The notes beneath the pieces were generated by a model, which saw only the letters and a program-made list of their open reading frames with translations, did no database searches and had not been told where the DNA came from. Below, piece after piece: positions 37,223-41,054 of a DNA stretch of 64,000 nucleotides. Where the stretch lies: assembly GCF_024519455.1 (NCBI RefSeq), contig NZ_JALJRY010000026.1, forward strand, positions 1-64,000. Reading direction: 5' to 3'. A program made the position numbers and the translations under genes. Position 1 is the first letter of the stretch; the number at the start of each line of letters is the position of its first letter. The stretch comes from Streptomyces sp. STR69 (GTDB lineage: Bacteria > Actinomycetota > Actinomycetes > Streptomycetales > Streptomycetaceae).

Positions 37223-38185
37223 TTGTTCCCGCCCGCGCACCACCGAAGATCGCTGGTGGCCTCCCTGGTCGGTGTCGGCCTCTCACTGAGTGGCTGCGGT
37301 CTCGAATCGAGTGCCACGCCCGCCGACGACGGGCCGATCACGCTCGGGTTCGTCAACGGCGGCAGTACCGAGTTCCACACCTGTCTGCAGGAGTCGATCG
37401 CGAACACGGCCAAGAGCAACTTCGCGAAGCTCGTCACGGCCAACTCACATCAGGACGCCGCGCAGGAACTCTCCAACATCCAGACCATGATCGCGCGCCA
37501 TGTCGACGCGATCATCGTGCAGACCGTCAACACCGACGCGCTCAAGAGCGACATCGCCAAGGCCAAGAGGGCGCACATTCCGATCTTCCTGACCTCGGTC
37601 AGTGCCGATCCGTCCGACATCCTCGGAGCCGTCGTCGTCGACCTGAAGGCGGTGGGCAAGCTCGACGCCGACTGGATCGAGGACGACGCCGCCGGTCGTC
37701 AGGTGCAGGTGGCGGTCATCGCGGGTGCGCCGGGCGCCGCCTCCGACCTGCTCGTCGGCGGATTCACCAAGGGGCTGCCGGCGAACGTGAAGGTGGTCGC
37801 GAACCAGCCCGCCATGTTCGTCGCCGCGAAGGCGAAGACTGTCGCCGAGAGCATGATCAAGGCGCATCCCGGTCTGGACTACGCCTTCGTCGCCAACGAG
37901 GAGATGGCGTTCGCCGCCCGCAAGGCGTTCGACGCGGCCGGCGCCAAGGGCGTGAGGATCGTGACGGTCAACGGCACCGACGAGGCCCTCGCCGCCCTCA
38001 AGGACGGCCGCTTCGCCGCCACGGTCTCCAACTCGGCCAAGGACACCGGCGAACTGGCTGTCACCAACGCCATCAGCCTTCTCCGTAAGGAGAAGGTGGA
38101 GAAGATCGCCACGACCCCGGCCCGCCTGGTCACGAAGGCCAACGCGGACACCGCCCCGCTCTACTGCCCCTCCGACGGACTGTGA
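37223..38185 (+). CDS. Periplasmic sugar-binding-type lipoprotein (LacI-like fold)
   Basis: The 320-residue secreted lipoprotein has a signal peptide with lipobox LSLSGC, so it is anchored at Cys ~25. The remainder is a type-I periplasmic binding fold like ribose or autoinducer-2 receptors (ITLGFVNGGSTEFHTCLQE, MIARHVDAIIVQTVNTDAL, VRIVTVNGTDEALAALKDGRFAATVS). TTG 37223 is the likely start, with AAAGGCGG upstream. No ABC ATPase or permease of this class is nearby, so it is an orphan receptor. Confidence 0.75.
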   Translation: MFPPAHHRRSLVASLVGVGLSLSGCGLESSATPADDGPITLGFVNGGSTEFHTCLQESIANTAKSNFAKLVTANSHQDAAQELSNIQTMIARHVDAIIVQTVNTDALKSDIAKAKRAHIPIFLTSVSADPSDILGAVVVDLKAVGKLDADWIEDDAAGRQVQVAVIAGAPGAASDLLVGGFTKGLPANVKVVANQPAMFVAAKAKTVAESMIKAHPGLDYAFVANEEMAFAARKAFDAAGAKGVRIVTVNGTDEALAALKDGRFAATVSNSAKDTGELAVTNAISLLRKEKVEKIATTPARLVTKANADTAPLYCPSDGL

Positions 38186-38203
38186 GCCGAGGCGGGAGCC
38201 GGA

Positions 38204-38240
38204 CTGTCACGTGGTAGACACTGTGTCTACGACGTGACAG
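38204..38240. terminator. Strong bidirectional terminator hairpin
   Basis: CTGTCACGT-G-GTAGACA, loop CTG, TGTCTAC-G-ACGTGACAG: a 17-bp stem with one G-G mismatch. It separates the lipoprotein gene (+) from the rhodanese gene (-) and covers the last rhodanese codons. Confidence 0.85.
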
Positions 38241-38628
38241 GCAGTCCCGCTGCCTTCCAGGCCTGGAAGCCGCCGACCAGGTCCGTCGCGCGGTGCAGGC
38301 CCAGTCGGTGCAGGGACGCGGCGGCCAGGGTGGACGCGTAGCCCTCGTTGCAGATCACCACGACGCGCAGGTCGTGGCCGGTGGCCTCGGGGGAGCGGTG
38401 GCTGCCCTGGGGGTCGAGGCGCCACTCCAGTTCGTTGCGCTCGACGACCAGGGCGCCCGGGATGAGACCGTCCCGCTCGCGCAGGGCCGCGTAGCGGATG
38501 TCGACCAGGAGAGCCGTGCCGTCGCGGGCGGCGTCGTAAGCCGCCCGGGCCTCGATCCGCTGATAGTCCGCGCGAACCCCCTCCAGCAACTCGTCTATGC
38601 CGGGCGGCTGTTCGCGTACGGCACTCAC
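38227..38628 (-). CDS. Rhodanese-like domain protein
   Basis: This 133-residue single rhodanese domain has the persulfide-carrying Cys in VVICNEGYAST (six-residue active-site loop) and the substrate-entry motif LLVDIRYAALRERDGLIPGALVVERNELEW. It probably transfers sulfane sulfur. The GTG start at 38628 overlaps the stop of the cysteine dioxygenase gene (GTGA), so the two are translationally coupled and act on cysteine-derived sulfur together. Confidence 0.9.
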   Translation of the reverse strand: MSAVREQPPGIDELLEGVRADYQRIEARAAYDAARDGTALLVDIRYAALRERDGLIPGALVVERNELEWRLDPQGSHRSPEATGHDLRVVVICNEGYASTLAAASLHRLGLHRATDLVGGFQAWKAAGLPVTS

Positions 38629-39164
38629 TGCCAGTCCTCCGGGCGCTCGACCTGCTCCAGGCGCAGCACCGGGCCGGTGCGGCTGTAGCGGCGGATCTGC
38701 GGCAGCGGCGGGTAGTAGGCGTGGACGGAGATCGCGTGCTCTTCGGCGGACTCGTTGAGCACCTCGTGGACGTGGTGATGGCCGAAGGCGCGGCCCTTGC
38801 CGGTCGGCAGCCGCCGCTCGCGGTCCACACCCTCCTCCAGTTCGAGGGTCTTCCAGCCGTGGCTCGGGAGCCGGGCGGCGAGCGAGTTCTCCTTGAGCTC
38901 GCCGGCGGCGGTGAGGAAGGCGCCCACCGAGTCGGCGTGGTCGTGCCAGCCCGTTCCGCTGCCGGGCGGCCAGCCGATCAGCCAGGCCTCGCTGCCGCCG
39001 GGCCCTTCGAGCCGCACCCAGGTACGACCCTCGGGGTCGAGGGGGAGCGAGGCGATGAGCTCGGTGTCGGCGGCCGTACGCCGTACGAAGTCGAGCAGGT
39101 CCGCCTGTGTCGGAGCCGGGGCGGGCGCGGCGGGGGACGCTGAGGCAGAGGAGGAGACAGACAC
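38625..39164 (-). CDS. Cysteine dioxygenase family protein
   Basis: The 179-residue cupin carries the iron ligands of type-I cysteine dioxygenase: HDH in GTGWHDHADSVGAF and the later His in GHHHVHEV. The enzyme oxidises cysteine to cysteine sulfinate. GTG 39164 is the preferred start, with AGGA 8 nt upstream; an in-frame GTG lies at 39170 and the open frame continues to 39266 without support. A Cys-rich leader peptide gene (39244-39330) precedes it on the same transcript, so expression is probably tied to cysteine supply. Confidence 0.9.
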   Translation of the reverse strand: MSVSSSASASPAAPAPAPTQADLLDFVRRTAADTELIASLPLDPEGRTWVRLEGPGGSEAWLIGWPPGSGTGWHDHADSVGAFLTAAGELKENSLAARLPSHGWKTLELEEGVDRERRLPTGKGRAFGHHHVHEVLNESAEEHAISVHAYYPPLPQIRRYSRTGPVLRLEQVERPEDWQ

Positions 39165-39243
39165 GTGCACCGTCCTGATGAGTGTTCGCGAGGGCACGCG
39201 CGGACCCACAGAAAGGGCGCGCGCGAGTGAGAGAGATGCGAAT

Positions 39244-39330
39244 TCAGCAGGAGACGTGACAGACACAGCCCACGTAGCGGACGAGGTCCAGATGGACCTT
39301 CCGCCAGAGGTGGACAGAGGTGTCGGTCAT
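39244..39330 (-). CDS. Cys-rich leader peptide ahead of cysteine dioxygenase operon
   Basis: The 28-residue peptide starts MTDTSVHLWRKVHLDLVR and ends VGCVCHVSC with the stop directly after the last Cys. It has three Cys in its last seven residues. A promoter (39366-39338) ends 7 nt before the ATG, so the peptide is translated from a leaderless mRNA. The cysteine dioxygenase start lies 80 nt downstream. The arrangement fits a cis-acting attenuator in which ribosome stalling at Cys codons reports cysteinyl-tRNA; peptides with a similar H-(V/L)-D-L-x-R core and C-terminal Cys occur before sulfur genes in actinobacteria. Confidence 0.65.
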   Translation of the reverse strand: MTDTSVHLWRKVHLDLVRYVGCVCHVSC

Positions 39331-39337
39331 GATCCGG

Positions 39338-39366
39338 AGTACAGCACGACGGTGCATGCGGGTCAA
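39338..39366 (-). promoter_or_regulatory. Promoter of the leader-cysteine dioxygenase-rhodanese operon
   Basis: On the reverse strand TTGACC (39366-39361), a 17-nt spacer and TGTACT (39343-39338) form a vegetative-type promoter; the leader ATG (39330) follows after 7 nt. Confidence 0.6.
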
Positions 39367-39404
39367 CTCAGCGTCACTATGTGGACAGTTAACGTACGGA
39401 GGCC

Positions 39405-41054
39405 TCAGCGTGAGCCGGCCGTGGCCTCCGTCTTCGCCGGGCCGCCCAGGGTCGCTTCGGCCGCCGCGTACAGATCGGCCGGCCGCACCCCGCTCAGGGC
39501 GGTGACCAGATGTCCGTCGGGCCGTACGAGCAGGACCGTGTGGGCGGCGGCGCCCGGGTAGCTCTCGGCGACCAGCAGCTCGGCCGGGTGCGGCAGCGCC
39601 GTCACCGCGGCTGCCAGGCGTGGCATGACCCCGGCGGTCACCCAGTGCTTGCGCTCCCACACGCCCGTGCCCGGTGCGACCAGGACGACCAGCAGGGCAC
39701 CCCGCCCGAGGCGGTCCCGCAGCCGTACGAAGGAGCCGTCCTCCGCGGTGACCCGGACATCGATGACCGGCGCACCGGGCGGGGTGTCGACGGGGACCTC
39801 GCCCTCGATGTGCCGGGGCGCGAGCGGCGAGTCGGCGTACGCCCCAGGCGCACCGAGCGCCCCGCGCCCCAAGTGACCGTCCGTGAGCAGCGAGTCGTGG
39901 CCACGGGCCGAGCCGGGCACGACCGCGCGCAGCCCTGCACCGCCGCGCACCAAGGGCAGCGCCTGGTCGGCGGCGCGCAGCCGGGCCGCGACGACCGCCC
40001 GCCGCTCCGCCTGATAGCTGTCGAGCAACGCCTCGTGCGGCCCGTGGTGCCAGGACAGCGCCAGCTTCCAGGCGAGGTTGTCGGCGTCCCGCAGCCCCTC
40101 GTCCAGCCCCTGCGTACCGAGCGCCCCCAGCAGATGCGCCGCGTCCCCCGCGAGAAACACCCGCCCCACCCGCCACCGGCGCGCGAGCCGGTGGTGCACG
40201 GTGTGCACGCCGGTGTCGAGCAGTTCGTACGGCGGTGTCGGCCCCTCGGTCCAGCCCGCGAGGGTCTCCCGGATACGGGTGAGCAGCAGCTCGGGCGTGA
40301 CCAGGTCCTTGCCCGGCGGCAGCAGCCAGTCCAGGCGCCACACGCCGTCCGGGAGGGGGCGTCCGGTGACCTCCCCGGCCGAGGGCCCGGTCGTCCGCCA
40401 CGGCGGCACCCGGTGCAACAACGCCTGGTCGGGCCACGGAAGTTCCGTGCGCAGCGCGGCCACGGCGTGTCGTTCCACCGCCGTACGGCCGGGAAAGCGG
40501 ATGTCCAGGAGCTTGCGCACGGTGGAGCGCGGGCCGTCGCAGCCGACCAGGTAACTGCCGCGCCACCAGGTGCCCTTGGGGCCGCGGGTGTGGGCGGTGA
40601 CGCCCGAGGATTCCTGTTCGACCGCGTCGAGGCGGTTGTCCACGGCGAGTTTCACCAGCCGCTCGCCCGCGAGGGCCTGGCGCAGGGCACCGGTCAGCAC
40701 GTGCTGGGCGATGTGCAGGGGGGCGGCGATCCCTTCCTGGCCATCGGGGCCCGCCGCACCGGTGGCGCCCTCCGCGTCGTCACCCTGGGCGTCGAACCTG
40801 ACCTCGCGCATCACCTGCTTGCGCCGCATCGACCGCCATCCGGCCCAACGGAAACCGGCTTCGGAGAGCGGGAAACCCGTCAGGCGTTCGATGAGCGCGG
40901 CGGTGTCCTCGCGCAGTACCACCGTCCGCGCGAGCCGCTGTTCGTCCTTGCCCGGCCCCTCGTCGAGGATCACGGAGGGGACCTCCTGGCGGGCCAGCGC
41001 AAGGGCGAGCGTGAGTCCCACGGGCCCTGATCCGACGATGATCACCGGGTCCAT
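39405..41054 (-). CDS. FAD-dependent aromatic-type monooxygenase
   Basis: This 549-residue group-A flavoprotein monooxygenase (PheA/TfdB, FAD_binding_3) has GxGxxG in VIIVGSGPVGLTLALAL (residues 4-20), the DG motif in GCDGPRSTVRKLL, and GD in RVFLAGDAAHLLGALGTQGLDEGLRDADNLAWKLA. The C-terminal ~110 residues form a thioredoxin-like domain. It hydroxylates an aromatic or polyketide-like substrate that I cannot name. ATG 41054 follows CAGGGGGCAG; the frame extends to 41144 without support. It lies behind the LuxR-type gene on the same strand, with a 171-bp gap holding TTGACG at 41167-41162 as a possible -35. Confidence 0.85.
   Translation of the reverse strand: MDPVIIVGSGPVGLTLALALARQEVPSVILDEGPGKDEQRLARTVVLREDTAALIERLTGFPLSEAGFRWAGWRSMRRKQVMREVRFDAQGDDAEGATGAAGPDGQEGIAAPLHIAQHVLTGALRQALAGERLVKLAVDNRLDAVEQESSGVTAHTRGPKGTWWRGSYLVGCDGPRSTVRKLLDIRFPGRTAVERHAVAALRTELPWPDQALLHRVPPWRTTGPSAGEVTGRPLPDGVWRLDWLLPPGKDLVTPELLLTRIRETLAGWTEGPTPPYELLDTGVHTVHHRLARRWRVGRVFLAGDAAHLLGALGTQGLDEGLRDADNLAWKLALSWHHGPHEALLDSYQAERRAVVAARLRAADQALPLVRGGAGLRAVVPGSARGHDSLLTDGHLGRGALGAPGAYADSPLAPRHIEGEVPVDTPPGAPVIDVRVTAEDGSFVRLRDRLGRGALLVVLVAPGTGVWERKHWVTAGVMPRLAAAVTALPHPAELLVAESYPGAAAHTVLLVRPDGHLVTALSGVRPADLYAAAEATLGGPAKTEATAGSR

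Follow-up and report, generated by a model that had tools for sequence, protein, structure and literature searches.

A conserved leader ORF as a putative cysteine-responsive translational attenuator of the cysteine dioxygenase operon in Streptomyces

The cysteine dioxygenase (CDO) gene in the 64,000-nucleotide stretch of Streptomyces sp. STR69 DNA analysed here (the window) is preceded by a 28-codon leader ORF, which we regard, with moderate confidence, as a cis-acting translational attenuator with low Cys-tRNA as the likeliest ON signal. As judged from its conservation, the leader ORF is under selection, and its sequence identifies it as an apparent member of a known cysteine-sensor group on an unexpected target. 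The new structural element described here is the complementarity between the final leader codons, CCG-UCC-UG, and the CDO Shine-Dalgarno (SD) element CAGGACGG. An initial annotation of this DNA had proposed cysteine-responsive attenuation. Its core, a conserved leader with Cys codons located in cis, is upheld, and the mechanism is refined to SD masking, the hairpin not being terminator-like. The mechanism class was probably right, and we add to it the masking of the SD by leader codons and the identity of the leader family.

Organization of the cysteine dioxygenase locus

The initial annotation had described a reverse-strand ORF of 28 codons from 39330 to 39244, followed by CDO and an overlapping rhodanese gene. 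We found the ORF, MTDTSVHLWRKVHLDLVRYVGCVCHVSC*, at the same coordinates, and the two downstream genes match PF05995 and PF00581 with an overlap of 4 nt (Table 1). Phmmer alignments give CDO an H-D-H region and an S-x-H-x-Y segment placed as in cysteine dioxygenases. A paralogous CDO with 39% identity is encoded elsewhere in the same genome. Convergent with the rhodanese gene lies a plus-strand gene (37223-38185) for a substrate-binding protein, nearest to the ribose ABC type; in a profile search its product matches NF007936 with E 1.1e-34, under the family cut-off.

Table 1. Features of the leader and CDO locus, in window coordinates.
Feature	Position	Strand	Basis
Putative -35 element TTGACC	39361..39366	minus	TTGA in 128/128, TTGAC in 119/128 Streptomyces loci
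-10-like element TGTACT, 7 nt ahead of leader ATG	39338..39343	minus	non-canonical vs TAnnnT
Leader ORF, 28 codons, MTDTSVHLWRKVHLDLVRYVGCVCHVSC*	39244..39330	minus	ORF translation, conservation
Cys22 codon, TGT in window	39265..39267	minus	Cys in 127/128 Streptomyces copies, TGC in 120
Cys24 codon TGT, 9 residues past motif Asp	39259..39261	minus	TGT in 128/128
Anti-SD TCCTG, codons 27-28, pairs with CAGGA	39248..39252	minus	complementarity, fold
5' stem side: stop TGA and TTCGC	39238..39246	minus	predicted fold
Inner GC-rich hairpin, species-variable, ends approximate	39192..39229	minus	predicted fold
3' stem side: GCGAA and TCA	39179..39189	minus	predicted fold
CDO SD element CAGGACGG	39170..39177	minus	CAGGACGG in 120/128 loci
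CDO gene (CDO_I)	38625..39164	minus	PF05995, E 8.8e-51; CDO structures matched
Rhodanese-domain gene	38227..38628	minus	PF00581; 4-nt overlap with CDO ORF
Gene with PF01494 FAD-binding domain, other flank of leader	39405-41054

The promoter that had been read upstream of the ORF, TTGACC-N17-TGTACT at a distance of 7 nt, has the letters as described, and these are conserved across 128 loci. The promoter spacer measures 17-18 nt in 126/127 Streptomyces loci. ACT lies 6-7 nt ahead of the leader start in 127/128 Streptomyces loci and TTGA is present in 128/128, so that initiation on a leaderless mRNA is likely. Support for the leader promoter comes from this conservation, as an automatic E. coli-type scan found 0 sites at the leader; the scan requires an A at -10 position 2, which TGTACT does not have.

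Conservation of the leader and its linkage to CDO

Conservation of the ORF in relatives, which the initial annotation had named as a test of its proposal, is extensive. In a search of 150 Streptomyces genomes, own genome included, 133 matched at E<=1; the leader is found at E<=1.1e-5 in 130/150, and the 3 further matches are weak. A close CDO ortholog (E<=5.4e-74) is likewise present in 130/150, the remaining 20 having distant homologs or nothing. Both lists of 130 comprise identical genomes; leader and close ortholog therefore co-occur in 130/130, and the leader occurs in 0/20 genomes without the close ortholog. For the counts below, 128 loci were drawn from the 130 genomes (G130 and G141 left out), with L129 and the duplicate L131 (G085) dropped before counting.

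The leader is followed by a CDO on its own strand in 127/129 loci (L129 with its CDO fragment counted, L131 excluded), and by the rhodanese gene, likewise on that strand, in 124/127 loci having CDO. The two exceptions for CDO are a contig edge (L025) and an orphan leader (L112). The orphan, in genome G012, consists of an intact leader and SD element, with the CDO of that genome about 1.1 Mb away (L204); within the stretch retrieved around this displaced CDO, no leader was found. In genome G119, a degenerate second leader adjoins a CDO fragment (L129).

Within the family, the leader matches at E<=0.01 in 35/61 sampled genomes and in 12/17 genera, Streptomyces included. Of these 35 matches, 27 come from other genera, and CDO lies downstream in 27/27, a count that covers the other-genus genomes with a leader match. 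A class-wide sample returned a leader match in 36/394 genomes, 33 of them Streptomyces. Among the non-Streptomyces matches, one leader (L200) stands 62 nt ahead of a CDO homolog with 35% identity, one (L202) is a family leader without CDO, and one (L201) is a chance match.

Constraint on the leader peptide and its codons

Across 128 copies, residues W9, R10, V12, H13, D15, R18, Y19 and C24 and the TGA stop codon are invariant, and the mean dN/dS of codons 6-24 is 0.24 (400 random pairs, 62 distinct sequences). The synonymous-site bias for which the initial annotation had suggested an alignment across Streptomyces is present as well: Cys24 is TGT in 128/128 copies and Ser27 is TCC in 124/128. 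In 18 long high-GC3 window ORFs, TGT makes up 13.6% of Cys codons (11/81) and TCC 43% of Ser codons. C28 is Cys in 115/128 copies and TGC in 108; these codon-conservation counts over 128 copies are not corrected for relatedness. Outside Streptomyces, some genera have A, S or T in place of Cys22, and one further Streptomyces (L206) has R. The invariant residues, the dN/dS value and the codon counts therefore argue that selection acts on more of the peptide than its Cys codons, and also on particular codons.

Further rare codons are favoured in the CDO leaders, namely AGG at Arg11 (118/128; 5% background), CAT at His13 (111/128; 12%) and TAT at Tyr19 (71/128; 9%). A palindrome at codons 11-16, GGTCCATATGGACC, whose 6-nt arms are complementary in 123/128 copies, was considered as an operator or hairpin and discounted, since it follows largely from the amino acids and the codon bias.

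Predicted masking of the CDO Shine-Dalgarno element by the leader tail

The pairing between leader tail and SD can be written CCGUCCUG/CAGGACGG. In the predicted fold of the window, the stem is formed by TCCTG, the TGA stop codon and TTCGC on one side, and by GCGAA, TCA and CAGGA on the other. A pattern search placed a GGA(A)CGG element within 260 nt past the leader stop in 128/128 loci. The spacer between leader stop and SD element spans 45-249 nt; the three values above 120 nt (L090, L094, L121) are doubtful. The tail CCGTCCTG, the exact reverse complement of CAGGACGG, occurs in 92/128 loci, and TCC is kept in 32/36 variants. Over 133 rows, made up of 128 Streptomyces loci and 9 others after removal of 4 that carry an additional A, the share of standard pairs lies between 89 and 100% at each of the 8 tail/SD positions; this mainly shows conservation of the tail, as the search pattern fixes most of the SD side.

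Folding was carried out for 124 loci, leaving out L035, L090, L094 and L121 with their long or N-containing spacers. The SD-tail pairing probability exceeds 0.5 in 116/124 loci (0.88 in the window), the other 8/124 lacking the pairing at this threshold. With codons 25-28 shuffled, 40/124 loci exceed 0.5 (mean of 5 shuffles), so that composition explains part, and not most, of the pairing. Bases past the stop codon are paired just upstream of the SD (probability >0.5) in 100/124 loci. Synonymous recoding of codons 25-28 raised the mean SD accessibility from 0.016 to 0.17 in 40 sampled loci, and at least 80% of the recodings were more open in 29/40. A two-sided change, TCCTG to TCCCG together with CAGGA to TGGGA, occurs in three loci of one other genus and represents perhaps one event. 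The evidence for pairing in these sequences thus consists mostly of invariance and synonymous constraint, with covariation limited to those three loci. Taken together, the leader sequence is predicted to be able to mask the downstream SD.

The window copy is a weak, atypical example of this masking. It possesses only a 5-bp anti-SD, complemented by the stop and post-stop pairs, and its recoding changes accessibility from 0.017 to 0.036. The GC-rich arms between 39180 and 39240, which the initial annotation had expected to form hairpins, do fold in prediction, with an unexceptional energy (z -1.6, 13/200 shuffles as good; a shorter stretch gave z -1.9). When five other loci were compared with their shuffles, the z values were 0.04 for L010, which thus folds no better than shuffled sequence, and -2.88, -3.13, -1.97 and -2.18 for the rest.

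Several loci depart from the common arrangement. L060, L064, L085 and L088 have an additional CAGGACC- or CAGACC-like copy a few bases ahead of the CAGGACGG element; three of them show weak predicted tail/SD pairing (0.16-0.30), and L060 reaches 0.66. By eye, the CDO leaders L180, L181, L183, L185, L186 and L189 of genus g143 end in ..CTAAR*, with no anti-SD tail. Also by eye, L180 carries UGUACGG...CCGUACA around the leader stop, and in L180 and L185 the CDO SD sits inside its own small hairpin (AGGGTGGTCACCCT, AGGGTGGTAACCCT). From these sequences, g143 looks like a case of the same leader on a different platform. The spacer of L043 contains several dozen C in a run, possibly an assembly artefact.

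Modelled ribosome positions on the leader

Modelled ribosome footprints on the 124 loci leave the SD closed over most of the leader, with a mean accessibility of 0.04-0.08 for P-site codons 1-21 and of 0.05 at codon 21 itself. Accessibility rises to 0.21 at P-site 22 and to 0.29-0.36 from 23 on, and the opening from P-site 22 is stable for footprint edges of 12-16 nt. Over the same edges, in 49 loci, a ribosome with C22 in the A site leaves an accessibility of 0.03-0.06 and one with C24 in the A site 0.22-0.26; this contrast fades at edges of 17-18 nt. In the window, accessibility is 0.24-0.44 at P-sites 22-27; once the stop codon occupies the A site, the modelled SD is nearly closed again (0.11). 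Ribosome position on the Cys codons accordingly changes SD accessibility in the model.

A traffic simulation of leader ribosomes, with rates of our own choosing, gave outcomes that depend on which codons are slowed. When C22, C24 and C28 are all slowed, the SD-open fraction changes from 0.19 to about 0.66; when C22 alone is slowed, it changes from 0.19 to 0.02. The plain prediction is therefore that Cys-tRNA shortage opens CDO, and a reversed sign would need dominance of C22.

The NF042934 leader family and its UGU codon

The initial annotation had linked the ORF to leader peptides before sulfur genes in actinobacteria, a kinship borne out at profile level. Against NF042934 ('putative leader peptide', cis_reg_atten; cut-off 27), the Streptomyces consensus scores 37.1 bits and the window copy 19.8. 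Seven non-Streptomyces CDO leaders score 28.4, 29.4, 27.9 and 29.4, and 11.6, 16.4 and 21.5 bits. The CDO leader shares the 19-position motif R-R-x-H-x-D-L-x-R-x-x-S/G-x-x-C, with the motif Cys 9 residues past the Asp in 128/128 copies, in a short ORF ahead of a sulfur gene. The CDO-leader consensus also matches the Ms5788A leader family with 18.3 bits (E 0.0014), below the curated cut-off of 45. Among the matches listed, the consensus has none to Ms4527A, and the window copy none to either family.

In its own genome, 18 NF042934 matches occur at E<=1, window copy included, 9 of them above the cut-off. Of 14 unrelated control genomes, 6 also match at E<=1, none above the cut-off. As controls match too, the weakest own-genome matches may be due to chance, and L148 was set aside. 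Ten paralog targets were annotated, leaving out the genes after L133, L134, L139, L141, L144 and L149, and 7/10 are clearly sulfur genes, mostly by best matches below family cut-offs. These encode a CysO-like MoaD/ThiS protein, the dimethylsulfone monooxygenase SfnG, a sulfurtransferase, an SsuA-like protein, a sulfite/nitrite reductase, an SsuC-like protein and an O-acetylhomoserine sulfhydrylase; a flavin reductase, an LLM monooxygenase and a sugar-type binding protein are less clear. Whereas the paralogs thus have mostly sulfur-acquisition targets, none of the ten is CDO, which makes the target in the window the odd one.

Tail/SD pairing is not a universal property of the paralogs: 11/13 leaders lack significant complementarity (start codons chosen by eye; L134, L141, L148 and L149 left out). 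The two significant cases are L138 (10 bp, 0/1000 shuffles) and L142 (8 bp, p 0.005), values not corrected for 13 tests. They precede the SfnG and LLM monooxygenase genes, and a modelled ribosome at their Cys codons opens the SD.

Beyond this family, NF042934 matches at E<=0.001 in 59/78 genomes of other families and in 0/14 controls. The motif Cys is TGT in 29/29 parsed class-wide leaders (30 loci returned, some genomes being close relatives), compared with 42/285 Cys codons of neighbouring ORFs and 14/62 other Cys codons of the same leaders. In own-genome leaders it is TGT in 16/17, window copy included, the other one having Ser, and in further CDO leaders in 30/30, one chance match set aside. 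Every checked leader that has the motif Cys therefore uses UGU, against a TGT background of about 14%. The loci covered are window 39259-39261, L132-L149, L209-L237, L173-L200, L205 and L206. The open-licence literature consulted contained no mention of this UGU use.

Relation to known leader peptides

By their names, families NF042933 and NF042936 presumably correspond to the leaders that Shell 2015 described ahead of cysA2/Msmeg_5788 and nirA/Msmeg_4527. For mycobacteria, that study, in the sections available, reports leaderless mRNAs on which conserved, cysteine-enriched small uORFs precede cysA2, Rv0485 and nirA (PMC4633059). Ms5788A (NF042933) and Ms4527A (NF042936), as far as described there, resemble the CDO leader in being short leaderless ORFs that lie in cis to sulfur genes and carry Cys codons close to their stop. 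They differ in that their Cys codons are clustered and their targets are assimilation or sulfurtransferase genes, as opposed to C22, C24 and C28 before a catabolic target. Cysteine-dependent attenuation in M. smegmatis is attributed to Canestrari 2020 in secondary sources (PMC13236596, PMC9031893, PMC9094748). Seliverstov 2005 predicted Cys-codon leaders without terminators before actinobacterial cys genes (PMC1262725); its accessible text names Mycobacterium, Propionibacterium and Bifidobacterium, and not Streptomyces or CDO, and proposes no SD sequestration. The leader uORFC-8-2 before cysS, as far as its source describes it (PMC8632094), likewise carries Cys codons, in tandem; it belongs to Rhodobacterales, has an intrinsic terminator and uses UGC as its dominant codon, in contrast to the invariant UGU of the CDO leader. 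None of the 8 leader peptides listed in the available portion of the S. lividans reannotation (PMC8079986) precedes CDO. Among titles and abstract openings of the open-licence literature, nothing relevant was found on a leader peptide before cysteine dioxygenase.

Discussion

The complementarity of tail and SD and the modelled SD opening from P-site 22 make a translational attenuator the most likely form of control. We postulate a transcription start at, or immediately beside, the leader ATG, with ribosomes that would translate the 28-codon leader directly. With no ribosome at the leader end, its final codons, joined in the window by the stop codon, would pair with the CDO SD, and this predicted fold would shut CDO-rhodanese translation. 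A ribosome halted with Cys24 (UGU) or Cys28 in the A site is modelled to cover the pairing strand and free the SD; averaged over loci, a ribosome holding the stop codon in its A site does the same in the model. The conserved nascent-chain motif R-R-x-H-x-D-L-x-R...C probably tunes the pause. At the weakest step of this scheme, low Cys-tRNA, and with it slow UGU decoding, would be the likeliest ON signal, a reading that follows from the geometry and from the kinship to leaders of sulfur-acquisition genes. From modelling and analogy, CDO would thus be switched ON by stalling and so by a shortage of cysteine, a predicted sign that is paradoxical and metabolically odd for an enzyme that degrades cysteine.

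The initial annotation had expected the sign to be the reverse of that in a biosynthetic operon, which the modelled stalls do not favour: those at Cys24 and Cys28 open the SD, and only a stall at Cys22 keeps it shut. The same attenuator could nevertheless work with opposite sign if scarce Cys-tRNA queued ribosomes at Cys22, leaving the hairpin shut, and ample cysteine led to CDO synthesis. We consider this unlikely, though it has clear points of support: a C22 stall in the A site leaves the SD at 0.03-0.06 versus 0.22-0.26 for C24 (49 loci), C22 is Cys in 127/128 Streptomyces copies, in the simulation with C22 alone slowed, starvation reduces the open fraction from 0.19 to 0.02, and the sign would agree both with a catabolic role and with the higher cdo mRNA levels seen on keratin. 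Against it, slowing C22, C24 and C28 together gives more opening under starvation, C22 and C24 stalls become less distinct at footprint edges of 17-18 nt, and some other genera retain leader and CDO but not C22, the universal Cys being C24. TnaC and SpeFL are arrest leader peptides that precede amino-acid-degrading genes and are conserved beyond the sensed residue, and the CDO leader resembles them in its target and its extra conserved residues. In a related scheme, the nascent chain would sense free cysteine or another thiol, and high cysteine would halt the ribosome near the stop and open CDO. The seven non-cysteine residues invariant over 128 species, the SD opening by modelled ribosomes held at the leader end and a catabolic target like that of TnaC and SpeFL are in keeping with such arrest. 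We hold it to be improbable, as the same motif precedes sulfur-acquisition genes, where ligand-induced opening would have the wrong sign, and as an invariant UGU is a signature at the level of the codon and not of the peptide.

Control at the level of transcription appears more improbable still. In that case, a pyrimidine-rich spacer would load Rho, or the hairpin would terminate, and the ribosome position would set read-through into CDO. By eye, the start of the spacer is C/T-rich in many loci, and Rho is proposed for mycobacterial cys leaders in the available text of PMC1262725. Yet the conserved element complements the SD, which Rho would not need, and a terminator-like site is absent; an attenuator built on an intrinsic terminator (GC hairpin and U run) was rejected, with 0 sites at window positions 37800-40500. 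It is highly improbable that the ORF arose by chance or encodes a small protein working in trans. The peptide is well conserved, as a trans-acting protein would be, but the leader lies beside CDO in 127/129 loci and its 3' codons are constrained as nucleotides (TCC in 124/128); conservation in 130/150 genomes makes a chance ORF untenable.

Apart from these alternatives, the translational attenuator favoured here can be placed in a broader and more speculative frame. UGU is a codon read by wobble, and tRNAs can be thiolated. The whole actinobacterial leader family might be a UGU-decoding sensor that Streptomyces has wired to its thiol dioxygenase-rhodanese genes, with CDO ON in sulfur shortage, an extension that we offer tentatively and regard as rather doubtful. 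If it holds, the conserved nascent chain would hold the ribosome and make the single wobble codon UGU rate-limiting. UGU decoding would then report sulfur status by way of Cys-tRNA charging, and possibly of a tRNA thiolation adjacent to the anticodon, and CDO would scavenge sulfite from thiols rather than merely dispose of excess cysteine. The occurrence of UGU at the motif Cys across the class is a sharp, testable clue to how leaders sense sulfur supply.

Cysteine-type leader control would be extended here to a cysteine-degrading operon, where the expected sign is reversed, and the sign of control bears on whether CDO physiology or leader logic has been misread. Pairing between leader codons and the SD provides a concrete, mutable mechanism. 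CDO output is also of practical interest, as accessible sections of PMC7181669 link CDO-made sulfite to keratin breakdown by Streptomyces. On feather medium, two cdo genes of Streptomyces SCUT-3 rise 50- and 8-fold in mRNA according to the same sections. In strain KKT, cdo mRNA on feathers at 96 h is 22- and 6-fold higher, and sulfate-assimilation genes rise too (PMC12763843, in the part available). These rises concern the mRNA level, with SCUT-3 genes that may or may not be the ortholog studied here, and fit either sign. The cysteine content of CDO was set aside as an argument on the sign, being suggestive only. As an observation on the protein itself, cysteine is absent from 118/126 CDO orthologs, a composition that might help translation during cysteine shortage.
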